Assembly (NCBI GenBank): GCA_945903265.1 | Contig: CAMDNQ010000002.1 | Coordinates: 1 to 64,000, forward strand | Source of the DNA: Candidatus Sulfopaludibacter sp. SbA3 | GTDB lineage: Bacteria; Acidobacteriota; Vicinamibacteria; Vicinamibacterales; UBA2999 | DNA: 64,000 bases | Reading direction: 5' to 3' | Shown here: positions 47,104 to 64,000 of the stretch, piece by piece | How the letters are laid out: the number at the start of each line of letters is the position of its first letter | Position numbering within the stretch: the stretch's first letter is position 1 | Notes under the pieces: generated by a model | Databases searched by the model: none | Told to the model about the DNA's origin: nothing | What the model saw: the letters and a program-made list of their open reading frames with translations, nothing else | Translations under genes and position numbers: made by a program

Positions 47104-48034
47104 TACCGATGAACGGAAGCATCCGGCCCCAGTAGATCACGCCGACCCAAGATGCAATCGCGACCGCCGCCACGGCCTTCTGGAACATGCCCGCGTTCTC
47201 GCCGGCCTTGAGCGTCCACGTGGTGTCGAGCACTGTCAGATAGAGGAAATGGGCGCCGGCGATCCCGAGGAACAGCACCTTCCAGAAAAAGGCCACGTTG
47301 TCGGTGTACTGCGTCGACGCGGCGATAAAGAACATCATGCCGGTGACGAGATTCATCGCCAGCCCGAGAATGCCCCAGGGCAGCAGCCGATGGAGCGCGG
47401 CAAACGAGAGCCCCTTCATCATCCCCAGGATCCGGAGATTGATCGCCAGCAGAATGCCGAACGTGAGCGCCAGGCCGAGGAAATGCAGACACTCCGCCGC
47501 CGGCCAGACCCACGGATACGTCGTGGTGACGTGCGCGATGTTCGCCGGAGTGAACCAGCCGGTGGGCACGCCGACCGCGATCGCCTCGGGATTGATCTCG
47601 GGATGGCGGATTTCACCGCCGATCGTCGCGGCGCGCGCCATCATCGCCATCGTCAGCACCGAGAGCAGCAGGACGACGCCCACGCTCTTCCGGGGCGGGC
47701 GCGGCGCGCGACGGCTCTGCCAGAGCGCCACCCACGCGGCGAGGCCGGTGAACTGCATCGCGACAAACGCCCAGAGCGCGGCGAGCTCGTGCGCCTTGAT
47801 GGCCGGTACGGCGACGCCGTCCATGTCTTCAATCGCCTGTTCCGCAGCCGAACCCGTGAGGTAGACCGGCAGCGTCAGCAGCGCGATGGCAAACAGCACC
47901 TCGCAGCTCGCGCGGAGCAGATCGTCGTTCTTCCGGATGAGCGCCAGCACCAGCAGACCCAGGCCGGCGGCCAGGCCGACCGTCGGGACGTGGTTCAGCA
48001 GCAGGTGCAGATGAGCGGTGTTGATCGATTCCAT
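47093..48034 (-). CDS. polytopic membrane protein, possible quinone/heme partner
   Basis: 313 aa with about eight hydrophobic segments. It begins MESINTAHLHLLLNHVPTVG, with clustered histidines in the first segment, as in DUF2231-like proteins. Its C-terminal half (LHFLGLALTFGILLAINLRI, then LGLAMNLVTGMMFF) is homologous to the neighbouring 153-aa protein. Conserved membrane histidines would allow b-heme binding, but that is inference. It lies between the diheme cytochrome unit and the amidohydrolase. Confidence 0.65.
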   Translation of the reverse strand: MESINTAHLHLLLNHVPTVGLAAGLGLLVLALIRKNDDLLRASCEVLFAIALLTLPVYLTGSAAEQAIEDMDGVAVPAIKAHELAALWAFVAMQFTGLAAWVALWQSRRAPRPPRKSVGVVLLLSVLTMAMMARAATIGGEIRHPEINPEAIAVGVPTGWFTPANIAHVTTTYPWVWPAAECLHFLGLALTFGILLAINLRILGMMKGLSFAALHRLLPWGILGLAMNLVTGMMFFIAASTQYTDNVAFFWKVLFLGIAGAHFLYLTVLDTTWTLKAGENAGMFQKAVAAVAIASWVGVIYWGRMLPFIGNAF

Positions 48035-48054
48035 CGTGGTTTGGAGAGCCCTTC

Positions 48055-48516
48055 CTACACGTACGCGAGCAAGCGGCCCGCGGTGATGGCGGCGGTCCAC
48101 GCGACCAGCGAGACCATCGCGAGCGCGCGCCCGGGAGCGGTCGCGTCCGGCGTCCCGTCAAACACGCGGCGCTTGATGAGCAGCGTCGATGCCACGCCAA
48201 TCGCCACGAACAGCATCTTCGCCAGGAAGAACAGGGACGTGCCACGATTGGTCGCCTGCGCCATGAAGAGCATCGTTCCGGTGATGGCGTTCAGCCAGAA
48301 CCCGATCCACATCACGGTGAAGAGCGACCTGAACGCCGCGATTGGGGCGCGCCAGCCGATGCCGAGCAGCCGCAGGTTCACGACCGCGGCCGCGCCGACG
48401 AGCATGCCGAGACCGAACGTATGCAGAGTCAGGATCGTCGGGAATGCCAGGAGGGATTCGCCTTCGCGAACCCAGGTCGCAATTGATGTCGCCTCGAGCC
48501 AGGTAAATAGATCCAT
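48055..48516 (-). CDS. four-helix membrane protein (DUF6644-like)
   Basis: 153 aa and four to five membrane segments. The core PTILTLHTFGLGMLVGAAAV, NLRLLG and FWLNAITGTMLFMAQA aligns with the C-terminal half of the next gene. A conserved histidine lies in segment two. It starts 8 bases after the diheme cytochrome stop. Probably forms a membrane module with the 313-aa protein and accepts electrons from the cytochrome; this is inference from context. Confidence 0.65.
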   Translation of the reverse strand: MDLFTWLEATSIATWVREGESLLAFPTILTLHTFGLGMLVGAAAVVNLRLLGIGWRAPIAAFRSLFTVMWIGFWLNAITGTMLFMAQATNRGTSLFFLAKMLFVAIGVASTLLIKRRVFDGTPDATAPGRALAMVSLVAWTAAITAGRLLAYV

Positions 48517-48524
48517 TGATGGGT

Positions 48525-49625
48525 TTACACGCCCCCCCGACCGCCTCGGCCCCCCGGGCCCGCGAGCGCGAATTCGATCTCGCCGTCGGCCTTCACCGCC
48601 GGCTTCGCCCAGGTCATAGTGCCCTTGAGCGTGCTCGCCGGAGCCGAGAGCGTCACGGTGAAGACCTGCCGATCGCCGGCCACCAGGCTCGGAATCTTCC
48701 AGGCCGCCACGTCCGCCTTGGCTTCTTCGCTGTGATGGACACCCTGGTATCCGTTGCCGGTGGCGCTCACGAGCGTCACTCCAGCCGGAAGCGCCACCTG
48801 CACCGTGATGCCTTCAGTCGTAATGCCCTTGCCCTTGACCGCGGTGTTGATCACTTCGACGGTGTACGCGCGAGCCGCAGGTGTCGGCTCGGCCGGCGTG
48901 ATGCGTCCCCGCAGGACGGGCAGGTACAGCCCGATATCGTTCATCCAGGCCCACATTTCCTTCAGCGTCGCCTCCGGCAGCCGCGAGGGCGAGTAATTGC
49001 CCATGCGGATGCGGTTCCGGCCGGGAGGCCCCGACGGGAGGGGCGTCAGCGGCTGCAGCGATCGGTCGATCTGCGCCCAGTGCTCGCGCATCGCGTTTGT
49101 GTGGTCATAGACCTGACGCTTGAACCAGTCAAAGTCGCCGCTGACTTCCGCGGCGCCGTGGCGCGGCGTCTCGAACGTCGCGCCGTGGCACTGCGCGCAG
49201 CCCACAATCGAAATGGCCAGCTGCTGGCCACGGGGCGCGCCCTCGGGGAGCGGCGTGCGCCAGGCCAGCGGTTTGGCGCCCGCCGGAATGGTCGCGAAGT
49301 ACGCCACCATGTCCGCGATTTCCTGGTCGGTCAGCTCCGACTCCGGATACGCCGGCATGCGAGCCAGGGGATTGCGCACGTAGGCCCGGAACCGCTCGAA
49401 CGTCAGCCGGCCACCCGCGAGCGCCGGGCCGAACGCCCCTTGGCCTTCGACGCCGTGGCAGTTCGTGCAGGATGTGTTGCCAAAGGTGTAGTGCAGCTTG
49501 CCCGCTGCCGCATCACCCGCGGGCGCCGTCGCGCCCTGAGGAGCGGTCTGCCCTGCGCCGACCCCCGTCTGCGCGATCGCCGTCACCGCCACAAACACGC
49601 CGACGCCGAGCATGACTCTGCGCAT
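48525..49625 (-). CDS. secreted diheme cytochrome c with C-terminal beta domain
   Basis: 366 aa. The signal peptide is followed by two c-type domains with heme motifs CTNCH and CAQCH. A beta-sandwich-like C-terminal domain (TVEVINTAVKGKGITTEGIT...) of DUF1775/YcnI-like appearance then ends in a Gly/Arg-rich tail. AGGAG stands 8 bases before the ATG at 49625; an earlier ATG at 49631 is too close to it. It lies between the C-family gene and the membrane proteins, so it is the natural electron shuttle of this cluster. Confidence 0.8.
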   Translation of the reverse strand: MRRVMLGVGVFVAVTAIAQTGVGAGQTAPQGATAPAGDAAAGKLHYTFGNTSCTNCHGVEGQGAFGPALAGGRLTFERFRAYVRNPLARMPAYPESELTDQEIADMVAYFATIPAGAKPLAWRTPLPEGAPRGQQLAISIVGCAQCHGATFETPRHGAAEVSGDFDWFKRQVYDHTNAMREHWAQIDRSLQPLTPLPSGPPGRNRIRMGNYSPSRLPEATLKEMWAWMNDIGLYLPVLRGRITPAEPTPAARAYTVEVINTAVKGKGITTEGITVQVALPAGVTLVSATGNGYQGVHHSEEAKADVAAWKIPSLVAGDRQVFTVTLSAPASTLKGTMTWAKPAVKADGEIEFALAGPGGRGGRGGV

Positions 49626-49640
49626 TCGCATCACTCCTGC

Positions 49641-50420
49641 TTATCTCGGTTCATCGGCGCGGCACGGGGTCGGGTCCCATCCCGCGCGATCGCCGATCTT
49701 CTTGAAGGGATAGGTCGTGGCGTACGGTTGTGTGAGGTACCGCGGATCCGTCACGATCGACGTGACCACCAGCCACGAGTCGCCGCTCGGCTCGGTAAAG
49801 GTTTCGAAGAACTCCTCGAGGCGCGCGTTCTCGCTGTACGGGACGCCGTTCTTGCGGAGGTACCCCGGCCGCATGTTGGTGGTCACCACGCGAAGCTGAC
49901 CGGTCGCGCGTCCGCCGCCGCGGCCGCCGAGACCTTGCCACTGCGCGACAGACCGCCCCTGCCAGTCGCTCGCCGCCCCAGCCGGTGCCGTCGCGCCGGC
50001 GGCGCCGAAGCGCAGCAGACGCGTCTGCGTTCCCGAGTCCGTATCAAGTTGCAGTGTGTTGTCATCCGCCCAGTGGATGCGCAGCCGGCCGGGAATGCGC
50101 ATGACACCGGCGGCGCCGTACGCCCGGCACTCGGCCCCCTCGGCCTTGTCTTTTGCCGGATCCCAGGCATCGGCCGTCTTCCGCCCGTCGGGGGTGAGCG
50201 GCAGCATCGCGTAGTCCCCTTTGGGCGGCATCATCATGCGCAGATGCCAGTGCTCGGTCACGACCGCCACCCAGTACCCGGCGAAGTCTCTCGGCGCCGC
50301 GGCACGGGCGCTGGCGGGAGCGGTCCCGCCGCGGCCCTGCGCGTCCGCGTCAGTCTGAACGAGCAGCGCGGCCGCGAGCAGCGCGGCCGCCCAGCGGCCC
50401 GAGAAGGGTACGCGAGCCAA
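49641..50420 (-). CDS. secreted protein of unknown family C (copy 1)
   Basis: 259 aa with a signal peptide. It opens with TTG that follows directly on the family-A stop (TAATTG). Shared with the paralogue at 58280: GYWVAVV.EHW, a PPKGDY/PSKGDF segment, AWDPAKD, CRAYGA.GVMR.P.RLRI, DNTLQLDTD.G.QTRL.RFG and GYLRKNGVPYS with WDPTPC near the end. One conserved CRAYG cysteine and one C-terminal cysteine could form a disulfide. A GGRGGG linker splits the two halves. Function unknown; periplasmic and all-beta in appearance. Confidence 0.75.
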   Translation of the reverse strand: MARVPFSGRWAAALLAAALLVQTDADAQGRGGTAPASARAAAPRDFAGYWVAVVTEHWHLRMMMPPKGDYAMLPLTPDGRKTADAWDPAKDKAEGAECRAYGAAGVMRIPGRLRIHWADDNTLQLDTDSGTQTRLLRFGAAGATAPAGAASDWQGRSVAQWQGLGGRGGGRATGQLRVVTTNMRPGYLRKNGVPYSENARLEEFFETFTEPSGDSWLVVTSIVTDPRYLTQPYATTYPFKKIGDRAGWDPTPCRADEPR

Positions 50421-50807
50421 TTACTCGACCCGGCCCTGCCATGACCAGCCGTCGGCAGGCCGTTTCATGCTGACAATCAGGAGACGGGGCGACGACTGAT
50501 CACGCGCCGGTTCGCCTGAGATGACGAGCTTGTCTCCGGGTCGGAGCGTCGTGCGTGTCAGGTTCGCGCTCGCGAGCTGGTTGATGGAGCCCCATTCGAG
50601 CGCCCACGTCTTCGTCACTCCGTCCTTCTCCGTCACGTCGACGCGCAGAAACGAATGCGGATTGCGCCAGACGAACTCCTTGACCACGCCCTCGATCTGC
50701 ACCTTCTTCGAGGAGTCATAGGTCGCGCCGAACGAGTGGTGCGCGACGGCGCGTCCGGTCCCCGCCAGCACCAGGCCGGCCGCGAGCAACAGGACCATGC
50801 GTTTCAT
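50421..50807 (-). CDS. DUF6152-like secreted protein, family A (copy 1)
   Basis: 128 aa with a signal peptide that ends at AHHSF, the family hallmark. The small beta-barrel reads ATYDSSKKVQIEGVVKEFVW, NPHSFLRVDV, WALEWGSINQLAS, TLRPGDKLVISGEPARD. It resembles an OB-fold. Paralogues are at 56198 and 61700. Starts at the ATG at 50807 with AGGAGA; the stop abuts the C gene and the start follows the B gene. The HH at the mature N-terminus could bind copper or another metal, which is inference. Confidence 0.82.
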   Translation of the reverse strand: MKRMVLLLAAGLVLAGTGRAVAHHSFGATYDSSKKVQIEGVVKEFVWRNPHSFLRVDVTEKDGVTKTWALEWGSINQLASANLTRTTLRPGDKLVISGEPARDQSSPRLLIVSMKRPADGWSWQGRVE

Positions 50808-50821
50808 CAGACGGTCTCCTT

Positions 50822-51850
50822 TCAGGACTTGCCGAGACTGCGGAAGACGGCGTCCACGAACATCTCCGTCGTCCACGTCCCCGTCGTGCTTCCGTACCGC
50901 TTATCGTACTCCCGCGTCGGCCGCGCCGCCTTGACCTGGGCCAGCGTCATCCCCTTCCTGGCCATGGCCGCAACCCGGTCCCGGATGATCGTGATCATGT
51001 CGCGGTAGTAGACGACTTCGGCATGATCCGCGATGCGGCCGTGGGCCGGTATGACCAGTGTCCCGCCCTCGGCATTCCTCGCCGGGACGGTGACGTCGAT
51101 CAGCCCGTTGAGGGAGTCGACGAGTGTCTCGATGCTGCCGCCCGCCGCGGTGTCGATCCGAGGGTATCCCGTCAAATCGAGGAGCGCGCCGGCGCTCACC
51201 ACGTCCGAGCGGCGGAACAGCACGATGCTGTTGCCATCTGTGTTCGACGGGCGGTGAATGACGACGACGGGCTCGTCGTTGAAATAGAGGCGCTTCTGAG
51301 GAATCGAGAACGTGTTGTCGGGCCACCCGAGCTCGGGGATCTTCGGGGTCCCGCCCGTCGGGCCTGCGAGCCGATGGAACATCGTGTAGTACGCGATGAC
51401 CGACGCCTTCGTGATGTCGAGCGCCCCCTGCGGTCCCGCGGTGTAGTTCGGCTCGCGGAACGGAATGATCTCGCCGGTGTCGGCAATCGCCGCGTTGCCA
51501 CCGACGTGGTCCTCGAATTCGGTGGTGTTGACGATGTAGCGCAGCGGGCGCGTCGAAATCGTCTTCATCGCCTCGAGCACCTTGCCGCTCATCGCGGCGG
51601 TGCCCGTATCGACGAGCAGGATGCCGTCCGTCCCCGACTGGACGGTGATGTTCGCCCCGGCGCCGATGATGACGTGGACGTTGCCGCGCACCGGCAGCAC
51701 CTGAAGGTCGCCGGGCGCGGGGCCCTGGATGCGCGGCGGCCAGACCGCCTGGCGGCCGGCGGCCGGACCTTGCGAGAAGACCACATGCGACGAACCCAGG
51801 AGGCCGGCGAGAAGGACGCCGGCGACGGCGGCAATCCGCAGGGAGCTCAC
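50822..51850 (-). CDS. metallo-beta-lactamase-fold protein with eroded metal site, family B (copy 1)
   Basis: 342 aa, signal peptide, GTG start overlapping the D-family stop (GTGA). The MBL fold is clear (ILLVDTGTAAMS, then the NTTEFEDHVGGN loop), but the HxHxDH motif reads T110-E-F112-E-D114-H115. The next histidine is Asn203 in PSNTDGN, the following aspartate is replaced in SAGALLD, and the last histidine (His270, PAHGR) is kept. At most three ligands remain, so it is probably non-catalytic or uses another chemistry. The conserved tail has GTWTTEMFVDAVF. Confidence 0.75.
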   Translation of the reverse strand: MSSLRIAAVAGVLLAGLLGSSHVVFSQGPAAGRQAVWPPRIQGPAPGDLQVLPVRGNVHVIIGAGANITVQSGTDGILLVDTGTAAMSGKVLEAMKTISTRPLRYIVNTTEFEDHVGGNAAIADTGEIIPFREPNYTAGPQGALDITKASVIAYYTMFHRLAGPTGGTPKIPELGWPDNTFSIPQKRLYFNDEPVVVIHRPSNTDGNSIVLFRRSDVVSAGALLDLTGYPRIDTAAGGSIETLVDSLNGLIDVTVPARNAEGGTLVIPAHGRIADHAEVVYYRDMITIIRDRVAAMARKGMTLAQVKAARPTREYDKRYGSTTGTWTTEMFVDAVFRSLGKS

Positions 51851-52767
51851 TCCACCGACCCCGGAGGCGCCGGCACCGTCGGCTTGGGCATCCCCTTCAT
51901 CTTCGTGACGAATTCCGGATACATCGTCTGCGCGCCCCCGAGGCGCGCGTCGTACGGCGTCGCGTAGCCGTCGGCCAGCTTGGGATTCAGGCCGGGCAGC
52001 GGACTCTCACCCGGGAGGAAATGCGGCACCGTGCCACGCGGCACCGCCGTCTCGGTCGCTTCCTCGCAGGGATAGGGCGCCATCGCCATGTTGGGATCGT
52101 TGATCCACATCATCGTGGTACGGATGTACGGCTCCGCCAGATAGACCGGGTCGTACAGGATGCTCGTCGCCTGGAGGTAATCGCCCATCCGGCGCCACCG
52201 CGTCCGCACGACCGACTGATCGCTGCGCATGAGCCCGCCGCGCCGGATGTAGGCCTCCTTGAGATGCGTGGTCGTGACCACCAGCGTGTCGCCGTCCCAT
52301 TCGCCGGTCGAGAAGCCGCTCCAGGTGTGGAGCGTATTCGCCGGTGGGTGCGGGCGTCCGTCCATCCAGATGGTCGTTTCCTGCTCCATCATGTTGACGT
52401 GCCCGCGGTAGGCGACGATCTTCTGCGTGTTGCGATCGATCTCGGGCCACAAGCGGAGCGGCGACAGCGGCCCTTCGAGGGAGTAATCCCACGCGTGGGG
52501 ACGGCAGACGAACTCCGCGACGTCGAAGTCATCCGGCGACCAGCTGTCGGCGCGCCACCGGCCTTCCTGGCTCACGGGGACGCCGGCCGTATCACCGGTC
52601 ATCCCGCTGCCGTCCTGATTGCGCGGAAGCGGGCGCCACGATCCCGAGAGCTCGACCTGCGCGGCGGCCGGCGGCACGGCGCACGCCAGCACCAGCGCGG
52701 CGATTGCCGAAATGCGCCGGGCGCCCGTACGCCCCCGAACCGCTCCCCCTGAATCCATGGCGCCCAT
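51847..52767 (-). CDS. secreted protein of unknown family D (copy 1)
   Basis: 306 aa with an N-terminal signal peptide after a short charged stretch (ATG at 52767, alternative ATG 52758). The family signature is IWMDGRPHPPANTLHTWSGF, then STGEWDGDTLVVTTTHLKEA, then YIRRGG and DPVYLAEPYI. Paralogues are at 59063 and 60885. Mostly beta, with conserved tryptophans, Asp and His; no known catalytic motif. First gene of the D-B-A-C-cytochrome run, coupled to B by a 4-base overlap and following the TonB receptor stop by three bases. Confidence 0.75.
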   Translation of the reverse strand: MGAMDSGGAVRGRTGARRISAIAALVLACAVPPAAAQVELSGSWRPLPRNQDGSGMTGDTAGVPVSQEGRWRADSWSPDDFDVAEFVCRPHAWDYSLEGPLSPLRLWPEIDRNTQKIVAYRGHVNMMEQETTIWMDGRPHPPANTLHTWSGFSTGEWDGDTLVVTTTHLKEAYIRRGGLMRSDQSVVRTRWRRMGDYLQATSILYDPVYLAEPYIRTTMMWINDPNMAMAPYPCEEATETAVPRGTVPHFLPGESPLPGLNPKLADGYATPYDARLGGAQTMYPEFVTKMKGMPKPTVPAPPGSVE

Positions 52768-52770
52768 ATT

Positions 52771-55700
52771 CTAGAACGAGTACTTCAGCGCGAACTGCAT
52801 GATTCGCGGATCGTCGGCCGTGAGGTACCTGCCGAAATTCGCGTCGCTGTAGTTCGTGACGGGCGACTGATTGTTCCCCGGCAGCGGCCGGAACCAGTTG
52901 AAGGTGTTGAACGCCTCGACGCGCGCCTCGATCCGGTGCGTGCCCAGGAAGCCGAACCCGCGCACGAGCGAGAAATCCAGCTGCCTCCGGGCCATCCCGA
53001 GGAACGCGTTGCGGCCGGAGTTGCCGTGGGTGCCGAGCGCCGGCTGCGCGAACGCCGCGGGGTTGAACCAGCTGTTGATCGTCTTCTCTCCGAACGGATT
53101 GTCGAGGATCTGGTTCACGCGCTGGGCGGTCGCCTGCACCCCGGTGAGCGCGCGATCGGCCCCGGTGCTGATGGTGAGCCAGTCTCCCGACGCCGCGCGG
53201 AAGATGCCCGACAGTCTCCACCCGGACGCGATCATGCGGACCGCGGTGTTGCTGAACTCCGGTGACGCCACGGTCGCCGTCATGTTGAAAATATGCGTCG
53301 GCGAACTGGCGCAGTGCCCCTCGTCCTGATCGAAGATCGCCTGCATGTCGGCCGGCGGGTTGATGAGGGACACCGGAATCATGTACCCCGTCCCGACGTT
53401 CAGCGGGGTCCCGCCCTGGTTGATGAGGCCGCGACAGGTGGACCAGGTGTAGTTCGCGTTGGTGCTGAGGCCGCTGACCGACCGGCGCTGAAACGACAGT
53501 TGCAGGCCGTGGTACCGCTGCCAGCCGGCGTCGGTCACCCAGTCGAGATACCCGATGTACTGGCCGACGGCCGGATTGTTCTGGGTGATCTCGCGGCGCA
53601 CGTCGAGCGGAGCCGCCGAGCAGTTCGGATACGTCTGCGTGCCCCCGGGCGCCGCAGGATTGCGCAGCGTGCACGGACCGGTCGGCGATACTCCTGCCGG
53701 AATGGTGCCGGGGTTGCCGGTGACGTCGCCCCACACGTTCATCAGATAGTTGCCGAGGTAGTTGGCGGACACGCCGATGTTGTCGCCGATCTGATGCTGA
53801 ACACCGACGTTCCAGCTGTGCACGCGCGTCGTTTCCAGATCCTTGGGCGCCTGGATGAGGAGCGCGTACGACGGGAACGCGGAGGTGGCGCTGGGCGAGT
53901 ACGGGTACGGGTTGGTCCGCCCCGCCGCGCGCCAGGGATCATCAAGCGCGTTCGGTCCCAGATTGATCAACCGCTGCTCGAGGCCGAAGGGCGGCGCCTG
54001 CGCGGCGTCAAAGTAGAACTCACCGGCAATGAAGTTGCTGTTCATGCCGTAGCCGGCGCGCACCGACGTGCGGCCGTCGCCCTCCGGATCCCACGACATC
54101 CCTACGCGCGGCTGGACGTTCGTCCATTCGGTGTACATCCCGGCCTGAGTCGGGAAATCCGCGTCGCCCGGATAGGTGAATCCGGGAGGCGCCTGCTGGA
54201 ACACCTGGCTGCGCTGCCCTGCCACGTAGCGATCGCGGTCGAAGTTGTAGATCGCGCCGTTCTGGTGCTGCTGCGGGAACCAGGGCTCCCATCGAAGTCC
54301 ATAGTTCACCGTCACGTTCGGCGACATCCGCCAGGTATCCTGGGCGTAGAGGCCGAAGTACTTCTGCTTGATGTCGAGCTTGAAAGGCGGTGCCTGGCGG
54401 AACTCGAACACACGGCCGGTCATGAAATCGGCCATCGCAAGCCCCGTCGCAAAGCCATTGAAGCTGAAGGAGCCGGGGGAACGCACGTTCGAGTTGGTCT
54501 TCCAGTCGTTGAGCGCCACCGATCCCCCGATCCCCCACTGGTGGTTTCCGCGCACCAGCGTCAGATCGTCGGAGAACGCGTAGGTGTTCGGCCGGTACCA
54601 CGAATCGGTCTCGGTGTTGGTGTTGACGGAAAAGCCCCCCGTCACGCTGATCAGCATGATTTCAGGGACGTGCGTATGGATATTGACGCCGACGTCCTCG
54701 GGCCCGAACATGTCGGCGTGCGTGCGGTGCACGTCGGTGCGATTCGCCGTAAAGCGGATGTTGTTGACGACGGTGTTGCTCAACACCATCGTGTCACCGA
54801 CCACCAGCGAGTTCGAGCCGCTGTCGCGCCCACCGGCACCCAGGCCGGACGCGGACAGCACGTTGCCGTCACCATTGAGGAACGCCGGATCCCAGAACGT
54901 CGTCGTCCGGAAGTAGCGCGCGAAGAGCGAGTGGTTCTGCGTGATCTGGTAGTCGATGCGCCCGATCAGCTGTGACTCCTCCGGCTTGGTCTGCCGCGAG
55001 AACGTGATGCGGCCGCACGGATCGGTCGTCGTGGGCAGGCGCCGCGCAATGGCGATGGCCGCCGGACTGAGCTGCGAAGGCGCGATGCGGTTGTCGGCGA
55101 ACGGCGCCGGGAGATTCAGGTTGCCCTGGGCGCGGCAGGCGGCAGACGCCACCTGCGTGAAATCACCGGCCAGCATCGCCGCTGTGGGGACGAATGTAAT
55201 CTGGTCGGCCGGCGTCTGCGTGGCGCGCGTCCCCTGATAGGCACCGAAGAAAAAGATGCGGTCCTGCGCAATCGGGCCGCCGAGCGTGCCGCCGAACTGA
55301 TTGCGGACGAGACCGTCGCTGCGCCGCTTGCCCGTGGCGGGGTTGACCCCGGCAAACCGGCTCGTGGCGTTGAACCGGTGGTGGCGCGCGAACTCGAACA
55401 GATCGCCGTGCAACAGGTTGGTCCCGGCCTTGGTGACGACGTTCACCGTGCCGCTCCCCTGGCGGCCGTTCTGCGCGTTCTGCGAGCTGGTCTCCACGCG
55501 GAATTCCTGCAGCGCGTCGGGAAACGGCAGCGGCAGCCCCAGTCCGTCGAGGACGTTGTTGTGCATGGCGCCGTCAAGGAGGTAGCTGACGGCGAACGGC
55601 TGCCCCCCGGTGATCGCGATGCCGCGGCTGGTGGTCATGCTGCGGCTCGTCGGCGCGCCGGTATCCGCGGCCGCGCCGGCCATGACGATGAGCATGACCG

Positions 55701-56157
55701 GATTGCGCCCCTCGAGCGGCAGGGCTTCCACCTGCTCGTTGTCGATCACCGACCCAATCGCGGGATTGCGCGTCTCGACGAGAGGCGCGGCGGCTTCGAC
55801 CGACACCGTTTCCTGGAGGCTTCCGAGCTCCAGCCTCACCGGAATGACCGGGTTGCTGTTCACCTGCAGCACGATGCCGGTTTGCGCGTAGCTGCGGAAG
55901 CCCGCAAGCGAAGCCTCGAGCCGGTAGGGACCGAGCGGAAGATTGAGCAGCGAGTACGCGCCCGCGGCGTCGCTGACGACCTCCCGCCGCGCGCCGGTAT
56001 CTATCTGCGTGGCCACGATCGTCACGCCAGGGAGGACGGCCCCGCTCGAATCGGCGACCGTGCCGTTGATTTGTGCTGTCGCCTGGGCCCACGCCGGGGA
56101 ACTCCCCAGAAGTATCGTCAGGACGACGCCGGCGAACCCGCGCAAGACGCGCTTCAT
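52771..56157 (-). CDS. Oar-like TonB-dependent receptor (copy 3)
   Basis: 1128 aa, larger than the other two receptors. Signal peptide, carboxypeptidase-regulatory-like domain (INGTVADSSGAVLPGVTIVA), plug with QVEALPLEGRNPVML, long beta-barrel ending ALKYSF. AGGAGG precedes the ATG at 56157. It is the head of the D-B-A-C-cytochrome unit and directly follows the A'-gene. It is therefore the best candidate for the outer-membrane uptake component of the cassette. Confidence 0.9.
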   Translation of the reverse strand: MKRVLRGFAGVVLTILLGSSPAWAQATAQINGTVADSSGAVLPGVTIVATQIDTGARREVVSDAAGAYSLLNLPLGPYRLEASLAGFRSYAQTGIVLQVNSNPVIPVRLELGSLQETVSVEAAAPLVETRNPAIGSVIDNEQVEALPLEGRNPVMLIVMAGAAADTGAPTSRSMTTSRGIAITGGQPFAVSYLLDGAMHNNVLDGLGLPLPFPDALQEFRVETSSQNAQNGRQGSGTVNVVTKAGTNLLHGDLFEFARHHRFNATSRFAGVNPATGKRRSDGLVRNQFGGTLGGPIAQDRIFFFGAYQGTRATQTPADQITFVPTAAMLAGDFTQVASAACRAQGNLNLPAPFADNRIAPSQLSPAAIAIARRLPTTTDPCGRITFSRQTKPEESQLIGRIDYQITQNHSLFARYFRTTTFWDPAFLNGDGNVLSASGLGAGGRDSGSNSLVVGDTMVLSNTVVNNIRFTANRTDVHRTHADMFGPEDVGVNIHTHVPEIMLISVTGGFSVNTNTETDSWYRPNTYAFSDDLTLVRGNHQWGIGGSVALNDWKTNSNVRSPGSFSFNGFATGLAMADFMTGRVFEFRQAPPFKLDIKQKYFGLYAQDTWRMSPNVTVNYGLRWEPWFPQQHQNGAIYNFDRDRYVAGQRSQVFQQAPPGFTYPGDADFPTQAGMYTEWTNVQPRVGMSWDPEGDGRTSVRAGYGMNSNFIAGEFYFDAAQAPPFGLEQRLINLGPNALDDPWRAAGRTNPYPYSPSATSAFPSYALLIQAPKDLETTRVHSWNVGVQHQIGDNIGVSANYLGNYLMNVWGDVTGNPGTIPAGVSPTGPCTLRNPAAPGGTQTYPNCSAAPLDVRREITQNNPAVGQYIGYLDWVTDAGWQRYHGLQLSFQRRSVSGLSTNANYTWSTCRGLINQGGTPLNVGTGYMIPVSLINPPADMQAIFDQDEGHCASSPTHIFNMTATVASPEFSNTAVRMIASGWRLSGIFRAASGDWLTISTGADRALTGVQATAQRVNQILDNPFGEKTINSWFNPAAFAQPALGTHGNSGRNAFLGMARRQLDFSLVRGFGFLGTHRIEARVEAFNTFNWFRPLPGNNQSPVTNYSDANFGRYLTADDPRIMQFALKYSF

Positions 56158-56197
56158 TCCTAGCCTCCTCGCAAGAGAACCCTGGGTCAGATTTTCT

Positions 56198-56590
56198 TCA
56201 GTCGAATTTTTCGTCGGCGAGCATGCCCCAGCTCCAGCCGTCGGCCGGTCGCTTGAACGTGAGCAGGCGGACGCGGTGATCCGCGGTGTTGCGTCCCGGA
56301 TTGCCGCTGATCACGACCTTGTCCCCCGCCTTGAGCGTGTCGCGCGAGACGCGTCCGCTCAGCTGCGACGGGGATCCCCACTCCACGACGTACCGCACCT
56401 TGGTCCCGTCGGGCTGGGCGACCATGACGTGCACGAATGAGTGGGGGCTGCGCAGCAGGAACTGCACGATCTCCCCTTCAATCGTCACGGACTTGTCTTC
56501 CAGGTAGGTCGCGGCGAACGAGTGATGCGCCAGCGGCGCCGCCCCCGTGAGCGTCGCGATCATGAGCGCCGCACAGAAAGCAATTTTCAT
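56198..56590 (-). CDS. DUF6152-like secreted protein, family A (copy 2)
   Basis: 130 aa. The signal peptide ends in LAHHSF, followed by ATYLEDKSVTIEGEIVQFLL, SPHSFVHVMV, VEWGSPSQLSG and TLKAGDKVVISGNPGRN; the end KRPADGWSWG matches copy 1. The ATG shares its A with the stop of the PEBP gene (TGATG), so the two are translationally coupled. The stop lies 41 bases before the TonB receptor start. Confidence 0.8.
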   Translation of the reverse strand: MKIAFCAALMIATLTGAAPLAHHSFAATYLEDKSVTIEGEIVQFLLRSPHSFVHVMVAQPDGTKVRYVVEWGSPSQLSGRVSRDTLKAGDKVVISGNPGRNTADHRVRLLTFKRPADGWSWGMLADEKFD

Positions 56591-57192
56591 CAGAACACCG
56601 CCCATCCCTGATTCGGCAGCCGCTCGAGCACCGCGTAGTAGGTGCTGGTGCCGATGATGTGTCCATCCATGGCCTTGAAGACATCGGGCCGCGTCGCGGC
56701 CGCCGGTAGCGCGAGCAAGGTGTCGAGCGCGTAAATCTTGAACTGGTAGTGGAGCGGGCCCGCGCCTGGCGGCGCGCAGGGAGGCCGGTATCCCACGATG
56801 CCTCGGCCGCCCGTCACCTGCCGGCTTCCGTCCGGCAGCTCCGCGCCAAGCGGGGCACTGGCCGGTAGTGAAGTCGTGGTCGGCGGGAGATTCCACCGGA
56901 CCCAGAAGAACTCGTCGGCCAGGCCGCGCATCGGGTGGTTGTCCGGCCCGTTCACCATCAGGACAAAGCTGACGGTCTCCTTCGGCGCGTTGGCCCACTG
57001 CAGCGGAGGGGACCCCCACTTCGCCCCGTCCGCATAGCAGGACGACCCGGCGGGCAGACGGGCGCCATCGGCAAACGCGCTACTCGAGAGGCGCAGCCGG
57101 GGCGATTCCGGAGGACGGGGAGCCTGCTGCGCAGCGGCAACGGCCAGCGTGAGAACGAACGGAGAGACAACCGCGAGCCAACGTACGCGCAT
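56590..57192 (-). CDS. secreted YbhB/YbcL-family PEBP-like protein
   Basis: 200 aa with a signal peptide ([20 protein letters not shown]). Phosphatidylethanolamine-binding-protein fold motifs: [20 protein letters not shown] and FFWVRWNLP, and [20 protein letters not shown] followed by YALD. Bacterial members bind small anionic ligands; catalysis is not established. The presence of a signal peptide puts it in the periplasm. It diverges from the B'-C'-D' run with 86 bases between. Confidence 0.82.
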
Positions 57193-57278
57193 CTGCACTC
57201 CTGTCTGCCGCCGTTTGGGCAGCGCGAATCTACCACAACTGCCTGCCACCGGCGGAACTGGGTTATCCTCTCGCGACG

Positions 57279-58280
57279 ATGACTTCCCGGCTCGCCCGGC
57301 GCCTCTCGCCGCGATGGATGGCGATGGCCGCGCTCCTCGCTGCGGCCACGCAGGTACAGCCCGCCGCGGCGCAGCGTCCCACGGACGCGGCGGTGTTCGA
57401 AACGCTCCAGATCCGCTCCAACGTCTTCGTCATCTTCGGCGCCGGCGGGAACATCACCGTCCATGTCGGCGAGGATGGCCTGGTCCTGGTCGACAGCGGA
57501 TCCGCATCGCGCGGGAGCGACGTGCTGGCAGCGGTGCGGCGCATCAGCGGACGGCCGATCCGCTACATCATCAACACGGGCCCGGACGAAGACCATGTCG
57601 GCGGCAATGAGACGCTGGCGCGCGCCGGCGCGTCGCTCATGGATGACACCTTCGCCGACGATCCGCGCGCGGCCGTCGTCTCACACGAGAACGTGCTGCT
57701 GCGCCTGAGCGGGGCGACCGGTCCCGCGGCGCTGCCGTCGGGCGCGTGGCCGAGCGAGACATTCACCTCCCGGTACCGGTCGCTTTACGTCAATGACGAC
57801 CCCATCCAGATCATCCGGCAGCTCGGCGCGCACTCGGACGGTGACGCGATGGTGCATTTCCGGCGCGCCGACGTGATTGCCACCGGCGACGTGCTCGATC
57901 TGCGGCATTTTCCCGTGATCGATCCCACCCGAGGCGGATCTATCCAGGGCGAGCTGGCCGCGTTGAACCGGCTGCTCGATCTCGTCGTTCCCGCCATGCC
58001 GCTCGTCCTGAAGGATGCGCGGACGCTGGTGGTGCCCGGCCACGGACGCGTCGCGGATTACGCGGAACTGGTCGACTACCGCGACACGCTAACCGTCATC
58101 CGCAACATCATCGCGGACCAGATCCAGAAGGGGATGACGCTGGAACAGGTCAGGAACGCCAACCCCGCGGCCGGCTACCGCGCCCGCTGGGGGCGTGACT
58201 CGGGGCCGTGGACCACCGACATGTTCGTCGAGGCCGTCTACAACGGGTTGAAGAATCCGCCCGCGGGATCGGAGCCGTGA
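57279..58280 (+). CDS. metallo-beta-lactamase-fold protein, half metal site, family B (copy 2)
   Basis: 333 aa, signal peptide. Compared with canonical HxHxDH, the loop reads G101-P-D103-E-D105-H106, so the first two histidines are gone. His185 (AHSDGD), Asp204 (TGDVLD) and His255 (PGHGR) remain, which leaves one complete site of the Zn2 type. Copy 1 has lost more. The tail [13 protein letters not shown] is shared with copy 1. It starts the plus-strand B'-C'-D' operon, and its stop overlaps the next ATG (TGATG). Confidence 0.78.
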
Positions 58281-59062
58281 TGCGCGCACCTGTCCTTCGT
58301 GCCGTCGTCCGCACCGTCGTCTGGCTCGGGCTCCTCTGGGCGGCGGCCGGCCCCGACGCGGCGCTGGCCCAGGGCCGCGCCGCGGGCCCGGCTCCACAGA
58401 CCCCAAAAGCCACAGCGCCGATCGACCTCACCGGCAACTGGGTGGCCGTCATTTCCGAGGACTGGCGCTGGCGGATGGTGACGCCGTCAAAGGGAGATTT
58501 CCCCAGCATCCCGCTGAACATGAAGGGGCAGGATGTCGCTGAAGCGTGGGACCCGGCAAAGGATGAATCGGCCGGCGAGCAGTGCCGCGCGTACGGCGCG
58601 CCCGGCGTGATGCGGGGACCGACGCGCCTGCGCATCAGCTGGCAGGATGACACCACCCTGAAGCTCGAGACCGACTACGGCATGCAGACCCGTCTCTTCC
58701 GCTTCGGCGCGACCGCCCCGGCGGCGGCGCAGCGAAGCTGGCAGGGCACGTCGCGCGCCGAATGGATCGCGACGACCGGCGGGCGTGGAGGCGGCGCCCG
58801 GCGCTTCGGTTACATGAAATCGGTCACCACGAACCTGCGGCCGGGATACCTGCGCAAGAACGGCGTCCCGTACAGCGCGTCCGCCGTCTTCACCGAACAG
58901 TGGGACGTGCACACGCGTGCCAACGGCATGCGCTACCTGGTCATCACGAACATCGTCGACGATCCGGTCTACCTCCAGTCGCCCTGGATCACCGCGCTCC
59001 ACTTCGAGCCGGAACGCGACGCGAGCAAGTGGGACCCGACGCCGTGTGATGCGAGGTTTTAG
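58280..59062 (+). CDS. secreted protein of unknown family C (copy 2)
   Basis: 260 aa with a signal peptide ([17 protein letters not shown]...ALAQG). It aligns along its length with the 259-aa protein at 49641: NWVAVISEDW, SKGDFPSIPL, AWDPAKDES, CRAYGAPGVMRGPTRLRI, DYGMQTRLFRFG, GYLRKNGVPYS, WDPTPC. The ATG shares one base with the B' stop, and the stop directly abuts the D' ATG. Function unknown. Confidence 0.78.
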   Translation: MRAPVLRAVVRTVVWLGLLWAAAGPDAALAQGRAAGPAPQTPKATAPIDLTGNWVAVISEDWRWRMVTPSKGDFPSIPLNMKGQDVAEAWDPAKDESAGEQCRAYGAPGVMRGPTRLRISWQDDTTLKLETDYGMQTRLFRFGATAPAAAQRSWQGTSRAEWIATTGGRGGGARRFGYMKSVTTNLRPGYLRKNGVPYSASAVFTEQWDVHTRANGMRYLVITNIVDDPVYLQSPWITALHFEPERDASKWDPTPCDARF

Positions 59063-60064
59063 ATGAGATACATCTGTGCGGTCCTGGGCGTGCTCCTCCT
59101 GTCCGCGGCTCCCGCTTCCGCGCAAGCGGAGCTGAGCGGCACCTATATCCCGCTGATGCACGAGGACTACATCGAGCGTGGTCCAGGGTCGTTTCTTGGC
59201 GATTACACCGGGGTGCCGCTGACCGACGAGGGTCGCGCCAAGGCTCTCCTCTACACGTCGAACCAGCCGTCACAGTACGAGCGCCAGTGCCTCGCCCAGT
59301 CGGCCGGCATCTTCCAGTATCGTCCGGTCGCCATCCGGTTCTTCAAGGAATGGAATGACGAGGGACGCGTGACCGCCTGGGTACTCGGCGGCGACAACCT
59401 GCGCGGCGACATCCGCATCTGGATGGACGGACGGCCGCACCCGTCACCGAACGCCCAGCACACCGAGGGCGGGTTTGCCACCGGTGCTTGGGAAGGCGAT
59501 ACGCTGGTCGCGCACGTGACGCACCTGAAGACGGCGTGGATCCGCCGCGGGGTCGGCATCCCGGCGAGCGATCACACCACGATCGACATGTACTTCACGC
59601 GCCGTGAGAACCTGCTGACCATCACGACGATTCAGGAAGATCCGTATTACCTGACGCAGCCGCACGTCGTCAGCCGCGTCTTCGAGTGGAATCCGCGCGC
59701 GGCCGACGTGACGCGCCAGACGTGCAACACCGCCAACGAGATTCCCTCGCTCGAGGACACCGGCCAGGTGCCGCACAACATGCCGGGACAGAACCCCGAA
59801 GCGGATTACATGGTGCGGACGTTCAACCTGCCGAAGGACGCGGCGATGGGATTCGCGGAGACGCTCTATCCGGAGTACCGCAGGAAGATTCGCAGCCTCT
59901 ACACCCTGCCCGTGGCGTGCGATGAGCGGGCGCCCGGTTACTGCTGCGGCTGGATCGAACGGCAGGGACTGCCGGGCGGGGCCCCCAGCCTGACCTGCAA
60001 CGACGGCGGGTTCGGCGGCCTTGGCCCGCGCGGCCGCCGGACTCCCGCCGCCACAGAACGATAG
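59063..60064 (+). CDS. secreted protein of unknown family D (copy 2)
   Basis: 333 aa with a signal peptide ending ASAQAE. The signature IWMDGRPHPSPNAQHTEGGF is followed by ATGAWEGDTLVAHVTHLKTA, WIRRG and DPYYLTQPHVV. Six or more cysteines, including a C-terminal CC pair in GYCCGW, are absent from copy 1, so this copy is probably disulfide-rich. A Gly/Arg-rich tail ends it. Third gene of the B'-C'-D' run; its stop touches the convergent methyltransferase stop. Confidence 0.78.
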   Translation: MRYICAVLGVLLLSAAPASAQAELSGTYIPLMHEDYIERGPGSFLGDYTGVPLTDEGRAKALLYTSNQPSQYERQCLAQSAGIFQYRPVAIRFFKEWNDEGRVTAWVLGGDNLRGDIRIWMDGRPHPSPNAQHTEGGFATGAWEGDTLVAHVTHLKTAWIRRGVGIPASDHTTIDMYFTRRENLLTITTIQEDPYYLTQPHVVSRVFEWNPRAADVTRQTCNTANEIPSLEDTGQVPHNMPGQNPEADYMVRTFNLPKDAAMGFAETLYPEYRRKIRSLYTLPVACDERAPGYCCGWIERQGLPGGAPSLTCNDGGFGGLGPRGRRTPAATER

Positions 60065-60874
60065 CTACCGGGTTGCGGTGAACGTCCCGCCGCTCCCGCC
60101 CTTGACCGTTCCCTTGATGGCGTTTCCGTCGACGCGCCCGCTGTAGACCGCGTTGCCGACGGTGAAGGTGATCTCGTTGCCGCGGAGGCGGCCGGACGAG
60201 ACGTCGGCGCCGCCAAGCGAGCCGGTCAGCATCTGAAACCGCTGTTTCAACACCAGCTGCTGGTTTCCCATCTTCCACGCGCCGTCGACCTTTGCCGGCA
60301 CGATCCAGAGGAGCGCGGTGCACCACGCCGAGCAGTCGCCTTCGACGCGCTGCGTCTCGTCGGCTTCCCAGTCGTCCATCGTGAACGTGTTCGCCACGAT
60401 GCGCGTGCCGGGGCGCAGGTTGAGGATCGACGGCCGGAGCTTCATGTTGATCGACGGCAGCAGGAACATCGTGATGACGTCGGCCTTCGAGAGATCCGTC
60501 TTGAACAGGTCCGAGTTCTCGAACGTGGCCCGTGCCGTGACGCCGGCGTCCTGCGCGTTCTTCCGCGAGAGCGCGACCATGTCGGGGTTGTACTCGATGC
60601 CGACGGCCCGCGCGCCGAGCTTCGCCGCCGAGATCACCGTGCGGCCGTCGCCAGAGCCAAGGTCCATCACGAAGTCATTCTTCGTGACCTTCGCCATCTC
60701 GAGCATCTTGTCGACGAGCGCCTGCGGCGTCGGCACCCAGACGACGTCCTTGCCCGCCTGACCGACCTGCGGCTCAAACGGTTTTTGCGTCGCGGTCTGC
60801 TGCGCCTGAGCGGGATGTGCGAGAAGAAGTGCGGTTGCGAGAATGAGGAATGAGGACGCGTAACGTTGTGTCAT
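60065..60874 (-). CDS. methyltransferase-fold protein with signal peptide
   Basis: 269 aa. The N-terminus MTQRYASSFLILATALLLAH is a clear signal peptide (cleavage near AQA). The body is a class I SAM-methyltransferase: VWVPTPQALVDKMLEMAKV, MDLGSGDGRTVI as motif I and GIEYNPDM as motif II. The C-terminal ~90 residues form a separate small beta domain (GRLRGNEITFTVGNAVYSGR). SAM is not known in the periplasm, so either export is not as predicted or the fold has another role. Convergent with D'. Confidence 0.75.
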   Translation of the reverse strand: MTQRYASSFLILATALLLAHPAQAQQTATQKPFEPQVGQAGKDVVWVPTPQALVDKMLEMAKVTKNDFVMDLGSGDGRTVISAAKLGARAVGIEYNPDMVALSRKNAQDAGVTARATFENSDLFKTDLSKADVITMFLLPSINMKLRPSILNLRPGTRIVANTFTMDDWEADETQRVEGDCSAWCTALLWIVPAKVDGAWKMGNQQLVLKQRFQMLTGSLGGADVSSGRLRGNEITFTVGNAVYSGRVDGNAIKGTVKGGSGGTFTATR

Positions 60875-60884
60875 AGGTGATTGA

Positions 60885-61703
60885 TTATCTGGGCAATCCG
60901 CCAAATGTGGGACCCCGGTATTCCGGAATTGTCTGAACTCCGTACTGGTTGTTCTCCTGGCAGATGTACTCCAGCAGTTCATCCCCAGGCGTCGTCGTCG
61001 CCATGAACGTGACGGTGAACGGACGCGTATAGGCGCCCGGATCGTCGATCGTGACCTTGTTCTCCATCTGGCCGAGATTCAGCCGCGTCCACCGTTCGAC
61101 GGTGTGCAGCTGTTCGCTGTGCGGGTGCCCGCGCCGATCGAACCAGAATTTGTCGTTGTAGCCGACCGTATCGATGACCAGCGTGTCCTTCTCCCACCAG
61201 CCGATCGAGTGGCCGTACCACGTCGGGTCGAGTTCCGCCGGATGCTTGCGGCCGTCCATGAAGATCTGCCGGAAGCTGTGAATGTTCCCTTCCTGGAGGA
61301 TGAACATGTGCGTCGGCGGCTTGTGCGTGTAGTTCTGGACGAAACGGTACGGGAACGGCGTCACGCGCGGCACGCCCATCGGGAGGCAGGCGTTGTGCGG
61401 TTCCTGCGTCTCGTCTCGCGTGGCCATGAGTGCTCTGGCCCAGGGCAGCAGGATCTCCTGGAGCTCGCCCTTCCGGAGCCCGCCCTGCGCTTCGATGTCC
61501 TGAACCGGACCGCCGCCGACCCACGTGGCATCCATCAGGTCGACCATGCCGTTCGGCAGACGCGGCACCGGACCCTTGGGCGGGCCTTCGCGCGTCACCG
61601 CGGCAATCGGCTTCTGCGAGGGGTCGTACTGCGTCGCCGCGGGCTGCACCAGCAGCGGGGCGATCAGTGCGGCCGCGCCGACCGCCACTCTGCAACGCGT
61701 CAT
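60885..61703 (-). CDS. secreted protein of unknown family D (copy 3, divergent)
   Basis: 272 aa with a signal peptide. The core IFMDGRKHPAELDPTWYGHS is followed by IGWWEKDTLVIDTVGYNDKF, then RRGHPHSEQLHTVERW. It keeps the MDGR.HP, TW.G.S.G.W and DTLV positions of the family but is otherwise the most diverged copy. Its ATG overlaps the A'' stop (ATGA), so an A-D pair is translated together. Ends 10 bases before the methyltransferase start. Confidence 0.72.
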   Translation of the reverse strand: MTRCRVAVGAAALIAPLLVQPAATQYDPSQKPIAAVTREGPPKGPVPRLPNGMVDLMDATWVGGGPVQDIEAQGGLRKGELQEILLPWARALMATRDETQEPHNACLPMGVPRVTPFPYRFVQNYTHKPPTHMFILQEGNIHSFRQIFMDGRKHPAELDPTWYGHSIGWWEKDTLVIDTVGYNDKFWFDRRGHPHSEQLHTVERWTRLNLGQMENKVTIDDPGAYTRPFTVTFMATTTPGDELLEYICQENNQYGVQTIPEYRGPTFGGLPR

Positions 61704-62089
61704 GGCTCTTCGTTGATCCCGGACAGCACCTTCCGTCCGTCGGCGAGCGTGACCGAGCGCGCGTTCGCCCCCGCGACGTTGGTCCTGGCGCCAATGCCTT
61801 CGATCGTGACGACGTCGCCGGCTTTCACCGTGCGGCCGGTCCACCCCTGACGAACCAGCGCGCTGCGCGCGGTCAGCTCGAGGTTCCAGTTCACGACGCT
61901 GCCGTCGGGCTGCCTGACATCGACGTACAGGCGCGAATGCGGATTGGTCCACTCGACCCTGGTGACGGTTCCGGTGATCGTGATCGGCCTGGCGGGATCG
62001 TATTCAGCGGTGACGGAGTGATGCGCCGCCAGTGAACCGGCGCCGACGAGAACGACGCCGGCCAGTACCGCCCCGAGCTTCATTCCCAT
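61700..62089 (-). CDS. DUF6152-like secreted protein, family A (copy 3)
   Basis: 129 aa with GGAGG five bases before the ATG at 62089. The signal peptide ends in LAAHHSV; then AEYDPARPITITGTVTRVEW, NPHSRLYVDV, WNLELTARSALVRQGW and TVKAGDVVTIEG. This copy is nearest to the consensus of the family. Translationally coupled to the D'' gene by ATGA. Confidence 0.83.
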   Translation of the reverse strand: MGMKLGAVLAGVVLVGAGSLAAHHSVTAEYDPARPITITGTVTRVEWTNPHSRLYVDVRQPDGSVVNWNLELTARSALVRQGWTGRTVKAGDVVTIEGIGARTNVAGANARSVTLADGRKVLSGINEEP

Positions 62090-63624: not shown

Positions 63625-63654
63625 GGGCGTAAAGTAACATACACGGACAATCCG

Positions 63655-64000
63655 ATGAGGGTCGACACACGATCCGCGCGCGTCGCGATGATCACGGCAG
63701 CCGCGTGTCTGTTGGCGGCGGTCTCGCTCCGCGGTCAGGCGGATCCCGCGCCGGCGATGGCCGAGACGGTGTTCAAGAACATCCAGGTGCTGAAGGGCAT
63801 TCCTGCTGACGAGTTCATGGACACGATGGGCATGTTCTCCGCCTCGCTGGGCTACGACTGCGTGAGCTGTCACTCCGACCAGATCTACACGGATCGGAGC
63901 GCATTCGCGATCACCACGCCGCTGATCCAGCGCGCGCGCCAGATGGTCGTGATGATGAACACGATCAACCGCACCTTCTTCGGCGCGCAGGCGCGCGTGA
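63655..64000 (+). CDS. cytochrome c, reaction-centre cytochrome-subunit-like (partial)
   Basis: The first 115 residues are present and the frame runs off the window. An N-terminal hydrophobic export segment is followed by FKNIQVLKGIPADEFMDTM, FSASLGYDCVSCHSD (heme motif CVSCH) and MMNTINRTFFG. This matches the pattern of acidobacterial proteins related to the photosynthetic reaction-centre cytochrome c subunit, which are widespread in non-phototrophs. A second CxxCH is expected just beyond the edge. Divergent from the lipoprotein gene. Confidence 0.75.
   Translation, partial: MRVDTRSARVAMITAAACLLAAVSLRGQADPAPAMAETVFKNIQVLKGIPADEFMDTMGMFSASLGYDCVSCHSDQIYTDRSAFAITTPLIQRARQMVVMMNTINRTFFGAQARV

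Follow-up and report, generated by a model that had tools for sequence, protein, structure and literature searches.

DUF6152 Proteins With a Putative Histidine Metal Site and a Conserved Secreted-Protein Cassette in Acidobacteriota

Introduction

Four kinds of secreted proteins, referred to as A (DUF6152), B (metallo-β-lactamase fold, MBL fold), C, and D, are encoded in repeated copies around a TonB-type receptor in the window analyzed here, i.e., the whole 64,000-nucleotide (nt) stretch at the start of contig CAMDNQ010000002.1 from Candidatus Sulfopaludibacter sp. SbA3. The window corresponds to C2:1-64000 of the 3.52-Mb source genome, which comprises 45 contigs, including C2, C6, C7, and C10. 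An earlier note on this DNA described the repeated genes as a functional set; its gene placement and family counts are partly confirmed, and its interpretation is partly supported. The D-B-C cassette is real and widely conserved, and the window holds two copies of it; A is an optional member of this set and has its own genome-wide pairing with a wider D superfamily. Furthermore, the sequences of A point to an uncharacterized family of envelope metalloproteins with tens of copies per genome, which very probably bind a metal, perhaps copper.

Genes at the Locus

The genes of the locus are as follows, with primes denoting the further copies.

47093..48516, minus strand: two small membrane proteins (48055-48516 and 47093-48100), DUF6644/DUF2231-like by family matches
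48525..49634, minus strand: diheme cytochrome c with DUF11-like C-terminus; next operon gene after C, not a conserved module member
49641..50420, minus strand: C, secreted C/D-superfamily protein; its TTG start abuts the A stop
50421..50807, minus strand: A, DUF6152; predicted mature start HHSFGATYD at 50741; putative site His1, His2, and His29; OB-fold model
50822..51850, minus strand: B, secreted MBL-fold protein; its seven metal-ligand positions read T-F-D-H-N-A-H
51847..52767, minus strand: D, secreted C/D-superfamily protein with GxW start; eight-strand calycin-like core predicted from the D'' model
52771..56157, minus strand: TonB-dependent-type outer-membrane receptor at the head of the left operon (CarboxypepD_reg and OMP_b-brl_4, Pfam)
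56198..56590, minus strand: A', DUF6152, behind the PEBP gene; predicted mature start HHSFAATYLED
56590..57249, minus strand: secreted protein of the phosphatidylethanolamine-binding-protein (PEBP) family (PF01161), upstream of A'
57279..58280, plus strand: B', MBL-fold protein with the variant ligand set G-D-D-H-H-D-H
58280..59062, plus strand: C', secreted C/D-superfamily protein; TGATG overlap with B'
59063..60064, plus strand: D', secreted C/D-superfamily protein by profile membership
60885..61703, minus strand: D'', A-paired branch of the C/D superfamily; ATGA overlap with A''
61700..62083, minus strand: A'', DUF6152, followed by D''; predicted mature start HHSVTAEYD

The three A, two B, and two C genes, as well as D and D', lie where the earlier note placed them, with Pfam matches or pairwise identities in agreement, and plausible Sec signal peptides are visible in each member read, as it had also claimed. 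A, A', and A'' match PF19649 with E values of 1e-26, 3e-17, and 1e-25 (93.1, 62.9, and 89.6 bits; cut-off 27). The receptor matches both receptor profiles, PF25183 (E 5e-169) and PF13620 (CarboxypepD_reg; E 1e-18). Overlapping or abutting junctions, reported for most neighbors, are found between D and B (GTGA), B' and C' (TGATG), A'' and D'' (ATGA), and A and C (TAA-TTG, abutting), but B and A are separated by a 14-nt gap carrying an AAGGAG site.

Conservation of the D-B-C Cassette

When about 85,000 species genomes were scanned with an alignment of C, 80 loci were retained, mostly from Acidobacteriota, with a few in records labeled Gammaproteobacteria and one in a metagenome-assembled genome labeled Acidimicrobiia; the scan was seeded with C-like sequences and speaks for the C branch, not for every C/D protein. 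Co-occurrence was scored on the 45 C loci from named genomes, mostly Acidobacteriota, that are flanked on either side by 3.5 kb or more. Within 3.5 kb of C, B is found in 45/45 loci and D in 43/45, with both present in 43/45. The earlier note would have counted its idea as refuted if C and D homologues were usually single and away from A or B in other genomes; the idea of a functional set withstands this test, with the C of these loci accompanied by B throughout. Both this D-B-C co-occurrence and the A-D pairing described below go beyond chance. The contiguous orders are D-B-C (31), B-C-D (13), D-B-A-C (9), and C-D-B (4), and the three orders without A are cyclic permutations of each other. 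D and B are fused in 14 reading frames among the other-genome loci, and a third D-B-C set in the source genome, at C6:148-151 kb, has D and B in one frame of 653 amino acids (C6:148138-150096).

On a tree of 94 C proteins, gene order requires 5 changes, compared with a mean of 20 after shuffling, and the presence of A between B and C, which is observed in 12 of 80 scorable C genes, also requires 5 changes. The clustering of order on this tree therefore indicates old inherited operons with few rearrangements and several gains and losses of A. Accordingly, of the proposal that the genes form a functional set and not one inherited operon, the first part stands because the set is conserved in other genomes, whereas the second is contradicted by the order. 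The identity of C' to genes of other genomes reaches 72%, compared with just 52% to C, and the two modules of the window are thus old paralogues. The named relatives nearest to the C genes of the source genome are Acidobacteriota, several of them labeled gp6.

Among 202 Pfam-scanned genes flanking the modules, OMP_b-brl_4/CarboxypepD_reg receptors are commonest (PF25183, 24/202), and 24/80 loci have a similar TonB-type receptor no more than 6 kb from C. The receptor proposed earlier as a neighbor is thus frequent, but the pyrroloquinoline quinone (PQQ) propeller, diheme cytochrome, and membrane genes of the window, together with a redoxin and an amidohydrolase, were rejected as module members, being found within 6 kb of C in 0-4 of 80 loci. 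A separate PQQ dehydrogenase cluster occurs near C in 12/80 loci, where an occasional link is possible. PQQ dehydrogenases, two-component systems, tannase, FAA hydrolase, and dienelactone hydrolase appear in small numbers among the flanking genes. At 60065-60982 of the window, between D' and D'', a protein resembling S-adenosylmethionine (SAM)-dependent methyltransferases carries a signal peptide and an extra C-terminal part, which is unusual in a secreted protein.

The C/D Superfamily

Profile searches seeded with the paralogues, as the earlier note had suggested, were run, and the iterated profile begun with D'' brings in C and C', D and D', and some 45 more copies from the source genome; C and D are therefore branches of one secreted superfamily. 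Instead of four families, A and B remain separate while C and D are merged. C and C' are 52% identical and D and D' 34%, whereas D'' is only 19-27% identical to C, D, and D' and is not the close third copy of D that had been counted. D'' is 49-66% identical to its tandem neighbors outside the window (C2:64.8-68.3 kb) and, judged from sequence, falls in a sister branch paired with A. Neither C nor D has a match above cut-off in Pfam or NCBIfam, and no convincing sequence relative of the D superfamily or of A was found in the PDB. G50 and W52, the GxW near the mature N-terminus, are at least 90% conserved in 50 sequences. The model of D'' (pLDDT, the predicted local distance difference test score, 85.6) places GxW near the start, followed by helices and then eight strands at 110-228, and UnaG, CRABP, NanoLuc, and lipocalin-like proteins recur among its calycin matches, with target-normalized TM (template modeling) scores of at most 0.48 among those listed. 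On the basis of this model, C and D are proposed with low-to-moderate confidence to be calycin-like, and the chance that they bind ligands is considered about even. About 87 domains of this superfamily occur in the 4.3-Mb genome G187, from another family of the same phylum; this unnamed protein family is very greatly expanded there.

Pairing of A With D

The three copies of A in 13.6 kb counted by the earlier note are no peculiarity of this locus, as the source genome contains 43. It also contains 50 C/D-type domains, and 27 of the 43 A genes lie within 1 kb of a D, compared with 1.8 expected (binomial p about 1e-26); in G187, the corresponding numbers are 33 of 46 A genes, compared with 2.7 expected. 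These p-values are inflated by tandem duplication; 27 of the 50 D domains of the source genome have another D within 1 kb. The A-D link is nevertheless supported by natural A-D fusions, one in the source genome (C10:35803-36945) and three in G187. Furthermore, the distances among A proteins correlate with those among their D partners (Mantel r 0.39, p 0.005; 0.36, p 0.01, when pairs from the same cluster are excluded), which, on 26 pairs, is suggestive but not decisive. The distribution of DUF6152 in the phylum is patchy, with 39 of 297 genomes carrying from one to about 46 copies each. A tandem array of A and D'' genes follows directly past the end of the window, at C2:64.8-68.8 kb.

Histidine Signature and Predicted Fold of A

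The 43 A paralogues of the source genome share a mean column identity of 31%, and their only invariant columns are His1, His2, and His29. Among 147 distinct DUF6152 sequences from the source and other genomes, 145 have all three His residues, two have none, and no sequence has a partial set; loss of all three together is expected of one shared site. The internal His is mostly preceded by Pro. The two exceptions, G187:C16:14163-15332 and a copy on G187:C21, have neither the His-His start nor the internal Pro-His, and the former, one of the fusions mentioned above, stands next to another A-D pair.

The His-His pair sits exactly at the predicted signal-peptidase site in 145/147 sequences. A cut between Ala and His-His obeys the −3,−1 rule in 96 of 102 sequences, compared with 14 of 102 for a cut one residue earlier, before Ala-His-His; an amino-terminal Cu(II)- and Ni(II)-binding (ATCUN) site, which would need the earlier cut, was rejected on this ground. 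Position −2 is unconstrained (Y, W, Q, D, and H all occur) and Ala or Val predominates at −3; this classic pattern indicates a cut exactly before His-His. The AlphaFold2 (AF2) model of A (pLDDT 94; predicted TM score, pTM, 0.85) has an oligonucleotide/oligosaccharide-binding (OB) fold, with OB-fold matches in the PDB, and places His29 in the turn linking the first two strands. Taken together, the mature N-terminal His-His and His29 very probably form a metal site.

In the histidine brace, copper is bound by an N-terminal His, through both its amino group and its side chain, and by a further His (PMC10952591). Both features, a His predicted to be first in the mature chain and a further conserved His, are found in the DUF6152 sequences, and the putative site looks like a histidine brace on a fold for which no brace is reported in the literature searched; there, no paper joins "histidine brace" and "OB-fold," and none mentions DUF6152. 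A copper brace would have T-shaped coordination by NH2, N-π, and N-τ. Copper is the somewhat favored metal.

Ligand Sets of B

B and B' are 43% identical and match the Lactamase_B profile with 28.3 and 51.4 bits (cut-off 22.7). Their nearest NCBIfam models are the quinoprotein relay system zinc metallohydrolases 1 and 2 (TIGR04558/TIGR04559), at 44.6 bits for B and 77.6 for B', far below the cut-offs of 280-300. The seven MBL ligands (HxHxDH, H, D, and H) were compared in 79 B sequences from the other-genome loci and the source genome, and all seven are kept in 27/79, which weakens the idea of B as an ordinary zinc hydrolase. The commonest altered set replaces the first His by Ser and the second by Asp (S-x-D-x-D-H for H-x-H-x-D-H), perhaps a different metal site, not a simple loss. 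In the window, neither copy keeps all seven: B (TFDHNAH) has lost most ligands and looks inactive as a metallohydrolase, and B' (GDDHHDH) carries a variant site, whereas the D-B fusion on C6 keeps all seven. Intact ligands occur in 3/12 loci with A and 23/64 without A, which, in these small numbers, indicates no clear dependence on A.

Redox Neighbors of A

TonB-type receptors are the commonest neighbors of A, as of C, and the 25 Pfam families most often encountered around A include no copper transporters or resistance genes. In the source genome, 9 of 10 CytoC_RC diheme cytochromes (p about 2e-10) and 6 of 9 DUF6644 membrane proteins (p 6e-6) lie within 3 kb of A. The periplasmic oxidation system suggested by the earlier note fits A better in this respect, but G187 has three CytoC_RC cytochromes, none within 3 kb of A. 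A cytochrome partner as a general rule for A was therefore rejected, and the link is limited to the source lineage, possibly as a property acquired there through whole-operon duplication. The CytoC_RC cytochromes combine two CxxCH motifs with a long C-terminal domain, which by eye resembles LolA-type lipid carriers, with just one weak DUF6544 match in Pfam. One such cytochrome, diheme and with a long C-terminal domain, starts at 63607-64000 of the window and runs on to C2:64779, and a natural fusion of cytochrome b/b6 with a CytoC_RC diheme unit and C-terminal domain lies near an A-D-D cluster at C7:139.6-141.8 kb.

Proposed Mechanism and Alternatives

These features are tentatively combined into a two-layer system for handling substrates in the envelope, with the D-B-C cassette and its receptor as one layer and A, as a copper redox center paired with D, as the other; we hold this scheme somewhat short of an even chance. 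In the first layer, D, B, and C form a conserved operon, with D and B at times one protein and a TonB-type receptor commonly beside it; the receptor would import a small hydrophobic or aromatic compound to the periplasm, and the barrels of C and D would bind it. B would dock on D and would hydrolyze the compound where its ligands are intact, or merely bind it where they are altered. In the second layer, the signal-peptidase cut of A would expose His1-His2, which with His29 would form one metal site on the OB fold; copper would be held in histidine-brace fashion, and A would act as a redox center with one C/D-type ligand-binding partner. Many A-D pairs would serve different ligands, and c-type cytochromes would exchange electrons with A. 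Redox catalysis by DUF6152, rather than transport, is considered less probable than not, and a hydrophobic or aromatic substrate is doubtful. Still more speculative, and on balance unlikely, is the fullest version, in which DUF6152 would be a new family of OB-fold copper oxidoreductases with a His1/His2/His29 brace, each with its own lipocalin-like C/D substrate carrier; some Acidobacteriota would then possess over 40 such periplasmic enzymes, an LPMO-like repertoire acting on small compounds of hydrophobic or aromatic nature.

Several results weigh against this scheme. The metal may be Ni, Zn, or Co; the D'' model has no PDB match at E < 0.001, and its calycin-type matches have E values of 0.04-0.5; most B proteins have altered ligands; the cytochrome link of A is absent in G187; and the substrate hints (tannase, FAA hydrolase, and dienelactone hydrolase) comprise just 2-3 genes per family among about 200. 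An alternative that we consider improbable is that A is a carrier or buffer of copper or another metal like CusF or CopC, delivering to its neighbors or to cytochromes without redox chemistry, with D as the delivery partner. An OB fold is common to CusF and the model of A. The brace-like sites of CopC, PmoF1, and YcnI are mostly tied to copper transport (PMC10952591). However, a genome with 43-46 A paralogues, the majority of them partnered by a D, far exceeds the need expected for metal delivery, and copper transporters and resistance genes are absent from the 25 commonest families around A. To the same low degree, C/D and A may be SusD-like ligand-capture partners of TonB-type receptors, with a structural or zinc-binding His site in A and with B as a pseudo-enzyme. 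This accords with the receptors being the commonest neighbors of both C and A, with a paralogue number akin to receptor expansion, and with ligands lost or altered in two thirds of B copies while the fold is conserved; a structural site, however, requires neither a free N-terminus nor such strict placement of the signal peptide, and the remaining third of B proteins retain every catalytic ligand. That the repeated genes are passive local duplications, a pattern without functional meaning, is favored by the tandem arrays of A and D just past the window and by the D domains lying beside each other; yet the two window modules are different old branches, the cassette extends across Acidobacteriota and into records labeled Gammaproteobacteria, and D-B and A-D fusions recur. 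This explanation was rejected on account of the conservation of D-B-C in other genomes and the inherited order on the C tree, and is considered extremely improbable.

Copper proteins defined by a His site at the mature N-terminus include several that rank among the most reactive known, and nearly every member of a family of "unknown function" bears such a signature in its sequence, on a predicted OB fold and at up to 46 copies per genome; its expansion is matched by that of partners unnamed in Pfam and NCBIfam. If copper binding by DUF6152 is true, a testable function is gained for a large, unexplained share of the envelope proteins in soil bacteria that are abundant. The D-B-C operon and the natural D-B and A-D fusions provide ready-made pairs for structural and biochemical work.

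Comparison With Known Systems

The B family is nearest to the quinoprotein relay zinc metallohydrolases 1 and 2, but its ligand set is altered in most copies. Similar to lipocalin and fatty-acid-binding protein (FABP) barrels, i.e., calycins, the C/D proteins have a GxW near the start, and the D'' model has an eight-strand all-β core; by contrast, they lack a significant structural or sequence match to these barrels and have some 55 residues of helix and loop separating GxW from the putative barrel. The cassette resembles SusC/TonB-dependent operons in that secreted proteins, probably co-transcribed, are encoded next to a TonB-type receptor, whereas no SusD is seen and the partners are the C/D superfamily, an MBL-fold protein, and DUF6152. 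The copper chaperone CusF has an OB fold, and its ligands are His/Met/Met and a Trp of the barrel. As with CusF and SilF, DUF6152 is a small secreted protein with a predicted OB fold and a proposed copper site; its ligands, however, would be the N-terminal His-His and His29, its only invariant residues, and A has no CusF profile match in the Pfam scan. The brace occurs in lytic polysaccharide monooxygenases (LPMOs), particulate methane monooxygenase (pMMO), CopC, PmoF1, and X325 (PMC10952591). From the copper histidine-brace proteins (LPMO, pMMO site B, CopC, PmoF1, X325/Bim1, and YcnI/DUF1775), DUF6152 differs in its putative metal, His-His start, predicted OB fold in place of the β-sandwich of LPMOs, and absence of LPMO-type (Pfam and NCBIfam) or CopC-type sequence matches; it shares with them a predicted N-terminal His, a second conserved His, and secretion, and with LPMOs the large sets of paralogues.

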